Assembly (NCBI GenBank): GCA_944325635.1
Contig: CALVBD010000010.1
Location: forward strand, 1-37,653
Source of the DNA: Candidatus Gastranaerophilales bacterium
Lineage (GTDB): Bacteria > Cyanobacteriota > Vampirovibrionia > Gastranaerophilales > Gastranaerophilaceae
Reading direction: 5' to 3'
DNA: 37,653 nt
A model generated the notes under the pieces. That model saw only the letters and a list, made by a program, of their open reading frames with translations, did no database searches and was not told the DNA's origin. Shown piece by piece: positions 3,283-26,031 of the stretch. How positions within the stretch are numbered: the stretch's first letter is position 1; each line of letters opens with the position of its first letter. The translations under genes and the position numbers were made by a program.

Positions 3283-3310
3283 TCGTGCTTTTTAGATTTA
3301 GAAAATATTA

Positions 3311-3340
3311 TTGGAATTATTATTAATTCTATGATATAAT
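3311..3340 (+). promoter_or_regulatory. Promoter of peptide locus 1
   Basis: TTGGAA (3311-3316), 18 bp, TATAAT (3335-3340), giving a start near 3347 and a leader of about 69 nt. The sequence around the -10 box (TATAATTTTTGC) is repeated at the second locus (25792 onward). Confidence 0.65.
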
Positions 3341-3415
3341 TTTTGCGGGGTAAGACTTATCTCCCTCCAACTACACATCAACATTACTGTAAAATGGTGG
3401 AAAGGGGGTGAGAGA

Positions 3416-3490
3416 ATGAAAAGACTTATAATAAAAGATGCCCTATCGGTAGTAGGACATCTTTTACAAATATTATCGATTTTCATTTAG
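3416..3490 (+). CDS. 24-residue hydrophobic peptide, candidate type I toxin (locus 1)
   Basis: A 24-codon ORF beginning MKRLIIKDAL and ending LQILSIFI. A strong purine-rich SD (AGGGGGTGAG, 3403-3412) lies just upstream. The C-terminal two-thirds is hydrophobic enough to insert in a membrane. The peptide at 25870 is exactly the same length and shares M1, I5, K7, V12 and L17-Q18-I19. The leader carries a C-rich segment (CTCCCTCC, 3361-3368) that could pair with the SD. It also carries AAGACT (3352-3357), complementary to GGTCTT (3491-3496) just after the stop. A convergent antisense promoter lies downstream. The arrangement matches type I toxin genes. Toxicity is inference; a leader peptide is an alternative. 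Confidence 0.6.
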   Translation: MKRLIIKDALSVVGHLLQILSIFI

Positions 3491-3531
3491 GGTCTTGTAA
3501 AGGTCGCTTTGTACAGCGACCACCCTTTATA
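3430..3531 (-). ncRNA. Candidate antisense antitoxin RNA (locus 1)
   Basis: A promoter on the minus strand, TTGAAA (3564-3559), 16 bp, TATAAT (3542-3537), would start an RNA near 3530. This RNA would run across the 3' hairpin, the stop codon and the back half of the peptide ORF. An inverted repeat in the ORF (arms 3433-3443 and 3455-3465) followed on the minus strand by TTTTATTAT can end it. The predicted length is about 100 nt. Because it covers GGTCTT (3491-3496), it would compete with the leader/3'-UTR pairing of the mRNA. Confidence 0.5.
3502..3521. terminator. 3' hairpin of peptide locus 1
   Basis: GGTCGCT, a 6-nt loop and AGCGACC form a perfect 7-bp stem. It may be extended by AGGG (3489-3492) pairing with CCCT (3523-3526). 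A T/A-rich tract follows. It can act as terminator for the peptide mRNA and as a stable first hairpin of the antisense RNA. Confidence 0.55.
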
Positions 3532-3536
3532 TTATT

Positions 3537-3564
3537 ATTATAACGTATTTCGGAAAATTTTCAA
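3537..3564 (-). promoter_or_regulatory. Antisense promoter, locus 1
   Basis: TTGAAA, 16 bp, TATAAT on the minus strand. The same boxes, in the same place relative to the peptide gene and with the same flank (ATTATAACGTA on the plus strand), occur at locus 2. Confidence 0.6.
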
Positions 3565-3582
3565 GTCCTGCAAATAAAATCG

Positions 3583-3787
3583 CTATGTTAATTTTGTTAT
3601 ATTCCCGTTCTCATCGCAGTCATACCAGATTTCATTTATTTGTTTGCCATCTGCGTCGTATTCATAATCAACGTAACAATTTACCGAACCGTCACTGCAT
3701 AGATTAATTTTTTGAGTTACTCGTCCGTTTTCGTCCAAAATCTGCGATACATACCCGTTTTCATCAAAAGAATAAGTTGTATTTATT
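3583..3787 (-). pseudogene. C-terminal remnant of a YD-repeat-like protein
   Basis: On the minus strand about 67 codons are open from just after a TGA near 3790 down to a TAG at 3585-3583. There is no start codon with an SD. The translation has repeated units such as FDENGYVSQI, LDENGRVTQK and CDENGNITKL, the style of YD/RHS-type or MORN-like repeat proteins. It lacks the rest of such a protein and is best read as the decayed 3' end of a larger gene lost by deletion. No function should be assumed. Confidence 0.5.
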
Positions 3788-3838
3788 CAAAACAACCTGC
3801 TTACATTTTTTTTTGAGTATTTGTGATAAAATAGAAGT

Positions 3839-25767: not shown

Positions 25768-25797
25768 TCGGAAGTATTATTAATTTTATGGTATAAT
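25768..25797 (+). promoter_or_regulatory. Promoter of peptide locus 2
   Basis: TCGGAA, 18 bp, TATAAT (25792-25797) followed by TTTTGCAGGG, the same arrangement as locus 1. The start is near 25804, with a leader of about 66 nt. It begins 4 nt after the rnhC stop codon. Confidence 0.6.
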
Positions 25798-25869
25798 TTT
25801 TGCAGGGTAGTACCACAACCTCACCCACACACGTATTTAACTAGGAAGTCGGTGGAAGGAGGTGGTAAT

Positions 25870-25944
25870 ATGACCAATATAATAATGAAAACCGTTATAA
25901 CGGTAATTATAACGGTTTTACAAATTATTATCTATTGGCTATAG
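25870..25944 (+). CDS. 24-residue hydrophobic peptide, candidate type I toxin (locus 2)
   Basis: A 24-codon ORF starts MTNIIMKTVI and ends LQIIIYWL, almost entirely Ile/Val/Thr/Leu and surely membrane-seeking. GGAAGGAGGTGG lies 6 nt upstream as a very strong SD. The leader has ACCAC and CUC segments (25812-25822) that can pair with GAGGUGGU at the SD. It also has AGTACC (25809-25814), complementary to GGTACT (25945-25950) directly after the stop. The same design as 3416-3490 is present with a different sequence. A perfect 13-bp inverted repeat lies inside the coding region (25888-25900/25907-25919). Confidence 0.6.
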   Translation: MTNIIMKTVITVIITVLQIIIYWL

Positions 25945-25997
25945 GGTACTAAGCGAAGCCTCAATCAAAAGGTACTTGGTTGGGGCTTCCCCCTATA
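25880..25997 (-). ncRNA. Candidate antisense antitoxin RNA (locus 2)
   Basis: Minus-strand promoter TTGAAA (26031-26026), 17 bp, TATAAT (26008-26003) predicts a start near 25996. The RNA would begin with the 3' hairpin, cross the stop codon and the GGTACT element, and could end at the perfect 13-bp inverted repeat inside the ORF, whose last arm is followed by TTTTCATTATT. The predicted length is about 115 nt. Confidence 0.5.
25955..25989. terminator. 3' hairpin of peptide locus 2
   Basis: GAAGCCTCAATCA pairs with TGGTTGGGGCTTC along 13 positions if G-U pairs are allowed in the plus-strand RNA. TATAGGG (25940-25946) and CCCTATA (25991-25997) can close the outside. This mirrors the hairpin at 3502-3521. 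Confidence 0.55.
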
Positions 25998-26002
25998 TTT
26001 TT

Positions 26003-26031
26003 ATTATAACGTACCTTAAATACTTTTTCAA
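26003..26031 (-). promoter_or_regulatory. Antisense promoter, locus 2
   Basis: TTGAAA, 17 bp, TATAAT on the minus strand, with the -10 box in the same ATTATAACGTA context as locus 1. Confidence 0.62.

Follow-up and report, generated by a model that had tools for sequence, protein, structure and literature searches.

What is encoded in the short intergenic segment that begins near position 3,300 of a 37,653-nucleotide contig stretch (the window) from Candidatus Gastranaerophilales bacterium? A preliminary description had placed there a sigma70-type promoter, a 69-nt leader, a Shine-Dalgarno (SD) sequence, a 24-codon open reading frame (ORF), a 3′ hairpin and a minus-strand promoter, and all of these were located, between 3311 and 3564 (locus 1; Table 1). 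Three features that it lacked have been added: an inverted repeat within the ORF, an anti-SD in the leader, and a pairing of the 5′ end of the RNA (3348–3358) with two distant 3′ segments (3490–3496 and 3522–3525), hereafter the clamp. We propose that the element is very probably a type I toxin-antitoxin (TA) module and belongs to a new multi-copy family. Support in silico is good, because conservation across genera extends to the ORF, the antisense promoter and terminator, the leader that sequesters the SD and the clamp, and because covariation and synonymous-codon tests agree with this assignment. We infer from sequence that the peptide is toxic and that the antisense RNA is transcribed.

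A conserved family with a selected reading frame

Promoter-like sites are no more frequent in the window than expected by chance (6 found by consensus scan, 5.3 expected in shuffles), and the case for locus 1 therefore depends on comparative evidence. Locus 1 is not a chance assembly: its RNA folds with z-scores of −4.3 (sense) and −5.0 (antisense, 3347–3530) relative to dinucleotide shuffles, a second copy lies in the window (25804–26008) and two more elsewhere in the genome, and homologues occur in most genera of the host family. A DNA similarity search found related loci in 9 of the 13 genomes of the genus, and those readable from end to end follow the plan of locus 1, with ORFs of 21–32 codons, mostly 24. 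RNAalifold on a MAFFT alignment recovered 7 pairs and no more, since the register of the in-ORF hairpin differs between subfamilies and the length of the 3′ hairpin varies; given this low yield, a manual structure was adopted instead, together with a covariance model built from ten related loci with that hand-derived structure. Searched with this model, the host family (Candidatus Gastranaerophilales) yields the element in 112 of 191 genomes, which represent 33 of its 41 genera, at 0 to 10 copies per genome and with full-length matches reaching E ~1e-37. This distribution bears out the expectation on which the preliminary description had staked its interpretation, namely that relatives would keep the ORF and the promoters. 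Wider samples of the phylum (80 of 292 genomes positive) and of the class (27 of 117) gave listed matches within the host family throughout, and no element outside it was among them. Named records with the element are metagenome-assembled genomes of Candidatus Gastranaerophilales or Melainabacteria.

An intact ORF of 21–34 codons follows the SD in ~104 of 109 copies (~95%), 63 of them encoding exactly 24 residues; three copies have lost the start codon and two carry a frameshift. Length variants are in-frame only, the SD and start codon are conserved, and copy pairs at 75–99% identity differ mostly at codon position 3, with a ratio of nonsynonymous to synonymous differences (pN/pS) of 0.52. 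The peptides are hydrophobic (mean grand average of hydropathy, GRAVY, 1.33); most carry positive charge at the N-terminus, and modelled as a helix they are amphipathic (moment 0.34, against 0.20 in shuffled peptides). We infer that the ORF is translated across the family, which on the coding side offers what a type I system calls for, a short hydrophobic peptide encoded behind a conserved SD and start codon. A 32-residue subfamily, M[KR]L...LDFLI..YK.KAPELELLELFLNS, includes L064, L086, L095, L141 and L143, among others. The peptides have no match in Pfam, NCBIfam or PHROGs, searches whose sensitivity is limited by their very short length, and the RNA has none in Rfam at gathering thresholds. 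Among the decayed copies, L076 and L106 (ATA for the start codon) and L102 (no start codon) keep the RNA structure and the antisense promoter.

A putative toxin mRNA predicted to be inert

The family RNAs are predicted to fold in such a way that the ribosome binding site is hidden. Counting the SD as sequestered when it is less than 20% unpaired, folding of 102 copies predicts sequestration in 87% of full-length RNAs, in 86% of RNAs truncated at the stop codon and in 84% of nascent chains, and in only 20% once the first 28 nt are removed. As judged from folding, the primary toxin transcript would be translationally inert, as is expected of type I systems.

The clamp is the second structural hallmark. 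At locus 1, the minimum free energy (MFE) fold pairs GGGT with ACCC at 3522–3525 and AAGACTT with GGGTCTT at 3490–3496. The family follows suit, its first nucleotides pairing with a segment directly behind the stop codon and GGG with CCC on the far side of the 3′ hairpin. Over 93 distinct pairs, and free of any alignment, the duplex of cognate strands (−8.94 kcal/mol) is more stable than that of swapped partners (−6.47 kcal/mol, standard deviation 0.19), which puts cognate pairing 13 standard deviations above permutation. The same interaction appears in the covariation as helices 1 and 2, and helix 15, the 3′ hairpin, has double changes at all 7 of its pairs. Of the cells in 115 distinct aligned rows, 83% are paired, and double changes number 782, compared to 258 when shuffled and at most 226 when slid; because this alignment was fitted to the model, such counts lean toward the model. 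A ten-sequence alignment that predates the model gives 47 versus 21 double changes. Transcription of this mRNA would start from a sense promoter whose best candidate per copy matches on average 8.96 of 12 consensus bases (7.1 in shuffles; 108 copies).

An antisense RNA that would end inside the ORF

On the minus strand, 108 of 108 copies have a promoter that matches the consensus at 9 or more of 12 bases (mean 10.85, against 7.3 in shuffles), with a spacer of 16–17 bp; it is stronger than the sense promoter (10.85 versus 8.96), and in every copy it sits past the 3′ hairpin of the mRNA. Its −35 box, TTGACA in 50 copies and TTGAAA in 36, falls outside the search model and is therefore independent of how the copies were found.

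Where might this antisense RNA end? All 91 distinct peptides are encoded by a sequence that forms, on the minus strand, a hairpin stronger than −8 kcal/mol with a U-rich tract, a threshold that is reached by 9.8% of synonymous recodings drawn from host codon usage. Among members known before the model was built, codon choice favours the hairpin with z-scores mostly between −3 and −4.7, and of −1.9 at locus 1. The conserved IIK motif is spelled ATAATAAAA in 27 of 39 cases, which is the reverse complement of the terminator U-tract; in locus 1, these are codons 3428–3436. In the 32-residue subfamily, the terminator is found in the second half of the ORF instead (codons 18–29). The predicted antisense RNA averages 113 nt across the family (97–123) and is perfectly complementary to the last two thirds of the ORF, the stop codon, the 3′ strand of the clamp and the 3′ hairpin, which at locus 1 doubles as the first hairpin of the antisense RNA. 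Type I TA modules are defined in part by an antisense RNA that overlaps the toxin mRNA and is bounded by a promoter and a terminator of its own, and the present family has predicted sites for both. The family represents a clean case of a toxin ORF that also encodes the (predicted) terminator of its antitoxin.

Table 1. Positions of the features of locus 1 and of the other copies in the host genome (window coordinates unless a contig is named)
Feature	Position	Strand	Basis
Sense (toxin mRNA) promoter, TTGGAA, 18-bp spacer, TATAAT	3311–3316, 3335–3340	+	consensus scan
Leader, 69 nt	~3347 to ATG	+	sequence
5′ clamp strand GGGTAAGACTT	3348–3358	+	MFE fold, swapped-partner duplex test, covariation helices 1 and 2
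Anti-SD TCTCCCTCC in leader; partners SD GGGGG (3404–3408) and GAGA (3410–3413)	3360–3368	+	fold
Shine-Dalgarno AAAGGGGGT, core GGGGG; family consensus AAAGGAGGT	core 3404–3408	+	sequence, alignments
Toxin-like ORF, 24 residues, MKRLIIKDALSVVGHLLQILSIFI, stop included	3416–3490	+	ORF integrity across copies, pN/pS, helical moment
Inverted repeat within ORF, predicted intrinsic terminator of antisense RNA	3432–3466	−	synonymous-recoding test
3′ clamp partner, first base is final stop-codon base	3490–3496	+	fold, covariation, swapped-partner test
Toxin mRNA 3′ hairpin, GGTCGCT (3502–3508) / AGCGACC (3515–3521), TTTGTA... between	3502–3521	+	sequence, fold, helix 15 covariation
Antisense (antitoxin) promoter, TTGAAA, 16 bp, TATAAT	3564–3559, 3542–3537	−	consensus scan, 11/12
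Predicted antisense antitoxin RNA, ~105 nt, ends inferred	3426–3530	−	promoter and terminator positions, antisense fold
Locus 2	25792–26031	+	covariance model, 153 bits
Locus 2 sense −10	25792–25797	+	
Locus 2 ORF MTNIIMKTVITVIITVLQIIIYWL, with in-ORF hairpin	25870–25944	+	
Locus 2 antisense −10 and −35	26008–26003, 26031–26026	−	
Third copy, MNRELLKKSLAVLEIFIKIVYLFL	contig C2, 208865–209069		
Fourth copy, 32-residue peptide variant	contig C2, 109525–109762		

Proposed mechanism

How might such a module work? We envision that a short mRNA (~185–200 nt) encodes the 24-residue hydrophobic and amphipathic peptide, which would most likely insert in the cell's own membrane. The mRNA may be silent from birth, the leader anti-SD capturing the SD before the ORF is completed; after termination, the clamp would bury and shield the 5′ end, and it would have to vie with the antisense RNA for the strand that both bind. 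The strong promoter just beyond the mRNA 3′ hairpin would meanwhile drive an antisense RNA of ~105–113 nt up to the in-ORF terminator. Pairing of this RNA with the 3′ two thirds of the mRNA would create a duplex for decay by RNase III, a gene for which is present in the host. Toxin would be translated once antisense synthesis stops and the leader is processed, with loss of the ~28 nt whose removal exposes the SD in folding. Activation by 5′ rather than 3′ processing is proposed because, in folding, 5′ truncation exposes the SD and 3′ truncation leaves it hidden.

From a wider perspective, the family might constitute a Melainabacteria-specific lineage of type I systems with a dual-coded core and with tandem modules that do not cross-react, serving for example in phage exclusion, a scenario that we regard as tentative and rather doubtful. 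The IIK motif, or a K-rich segment in the 32-residue group, would then be fixed largely because its codons are also the U-tract of the antitoxin terminator, and with codons shared in this way toxin and antitoxin would be unable to diverge independently.

Alternative explanations

Could the same architecture serve another purpose? The peptide might be a non-toxic small membrane protein, a regulatory or structural micropeptide whose dose is set by the antisense RNA. The sequence evidence (ORF, structure and antisense promoter) fits this equally well, and a host function is suggested by a conserved copy whose site is orthologous in two genera and whose peptide is identical in both (L004, L041). 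Several observations weigh against the type I reading itself. The in-ORF hairpin of locus 1 is only modestly better than synonymous recoding would give, 45 of 1000 recodings being as stable; some peptides are less typical, the 32-residue group being unusually charged for a type I toxin (net charge to −3); many copies have a weak or ambiguous sense promoter; and most copies were found by a model that contains the structure, which biases structure counts toward structure. The −35 boxes, the within-copy swapped-partner test and the 13 members known before the model are less affected by that bias. As for the micropeptide, a copy number of 0 to 10, tandem duplication, fast diversification, the lack of the element in many close relatives and silencing at three levels (anti-SD, clamp and antisense RNA) are easier to reconcile with a dangerous product than with a housekeeping role, and we consider a harmless micropeptide unlikely.

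If the ORF were incidental, the element might be a structured non-coding RNA or a small repeat of MITE-like or attenuator-like type. Such an element would likewise be multi-copy, intergenic, at times tandem and endowed with very strong RNA structure. It would hardly be expected, however, to keep the SD, the start codon and an intact ORF in ~95% of highly diverged copies, to change length in frame, to show a pN/pS of 0.52 and to preserve amphipathicity, and Rfam holds no match to it; we judge it very improbable. As for a fortuitous meeting of AT-rich promoter-like sites, a short ORF and hairpins, the promoter count of the window, equal to its shuffled expectation, is what this would predict, but conservation already refutes it (E to 1e-37, 33 genera, covariation) and we give it next to no weight. 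A type I TA module remains the explanation that we favour.

Relation to known type I systems

Which known systems does the element resemble? The preliminary description had named TxpA/RatA, hok/Sok and aapA/IsoA as models; the first holds, the antisense RNA covering the 3′ half of the mRNA, whereas IsoA and Sok cover the 5′ part and do not apply in this respect. By our comparison, the element would work most like txpA/RatA and bsrG/SR4 of B. subtilis, in which the antitoxin overlaps the 3′ end, combined with a 5′–3′ clamp like that of hok and aapA.

The full-length hok mRNA is inert through 5′–3′ pairing, a likeness to the present family. Sok covers the 5′ leader, and Hok is longer than the present peptides and is translationally coupled to a leader ORF, of which no equivalent was seen here.

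In the B. subtilis systems, the antitoxin binds the 3′ end of the toxin mRNA over 100–140 bp and decay by RNase III is known (PMC6562991). Shared by txpA/RatA, bsrG/SR4, bsrE/SR5 and yonT/SR6 is a convergent, cis-encoded antisense RNA that pairs over ~100 nt with the mRNA of a small hydrophobic toxin, in its 3′ part, and the predicted sites of our family likewise place the overlap in the 3′ part; in bsrG, too, the SD is sequestered in the mRNA. The present toxin is shorter (24 residues) and the clamp is conserved. In every copy the predicted antisense terminator lies in the ORF, the comparison covering terminator positions in the present family. No toxin or RNA sequence homology to these systems was found through Pfam, NCBIfam, PHROGs and Rfam, within the sensitivity that very short peptides allow.

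The aapA/IsoA modules (Helicobacter, Campylobacterota) feature a 5′–3′ long-distance interaction, an SD hidden in a transient upstream hairpin and, in H. pylori, an 80-nt antisense RNA (PMC6733600). They are alike in having an amphipathic toxin of ~24–30 residues, a multi-copy chromosomal family and a small antisense RNA, and covariation and the swapped-partner test support the long-distance interaction here as well. The IsoA promoter, however, lies inside the aapA ORF and its RNA covers the 5′ side, whereas the present promoter lies, in every copy, beyond the 3′ hairpin and its predicted RNA covers the 3′ side. A further difference, predicted by folding, is that 5′ truncation frees the SD in the present family and 3′ truncation does not. 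There is no family-level sequence match between the two.

A further comparison is with msoT1/msoA1 of Microcystis aeruginosa, reported in 2025 as the first candidate type I TA system in cyanobacteria, in which the antisense RNA covers the 3′ untranslated region and the adjoining end of the coding region. Its authors regard it as the first beyond Proteobacteria, Firmicutes and Tenericutes, the three phyla to which known type I systems had been confined; the putative Microcystis toxins tested have 39–81 residues, MsoT1 with two predicted transmembrane helices (PMC12390103). It shares the Cyanobacteriota/Melainabacteria group and the 3′-side antisense, but belongs to another host class and is not a multi-copy 24-residue family, a distinction drawn from its description rather than its sequence. 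In the literature collection searched, nothing relevant turned up on type I toxins in Gastranaerophilales or Melainabacteria. The narrow phylum range of type I systems had been suspected to reflect search bias, and a conserved family in gut Gastranaerophilales, present in ~60% of genomes with as many as 10 copies each, supports that suspicion. The covariance model now allows the family to be annotated.

Genomic context and minor observations

The host genome has four copies of the element, two of them in the window; locus 2 follows the plan of locus 1 with a quite different sequence. Copies are mostly chromosomal and lie between unrelated genes. Tandem copies occur, such as three spaced ~290 nt apart on contig C18 of G004, a genome of the window's genus; L147 has the same three-copy array at identical contig coordinates. 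Locus 1 is flanked by a DUF711-type gene and a riboflavin synthase gene, and in two relatives other small genes take its place, which indicates that the module comes and goes. This intergenic site (window 3283–3838) is a turnover hotspot between species, with an XRE-type regulator in L153 and an unknown small protein in L152. The copy on contig C2 with an orthologue in another genus sits between a MurJ-like flippase gene and a TsaC/Sua5-like gene (names from reading the translations). Phage and plasmid collections gave no match to the family, and five SD-plus-IIK pattern matches on viral contigs proved not to be members by the covariance model.

Adjoining locus 1 on the minus strand (window 3583–3738) is a short repeat-like ORF, MDENGRVTQKINLCSDGSVNCYVDYEYDADGKQ..., which resembles the remnant of a larger gene. 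DNA matches to the antisense promoter on contigs C3, C4 and C1 (L003, L007, L009, L012, L013, L016) are ordinary promoters of other genes. At two of these places, L012:313 (plus strand, host contig C4) and L016 (minus strand, near 57, host contig C3), short ORFs start with METIDMTGF and MKTVAMTGF, respectively. Both contain an 11-G homopolymer ~10 codons past the start, have pilin-like genes nearby and look phase-variable, behind a strong promoter.
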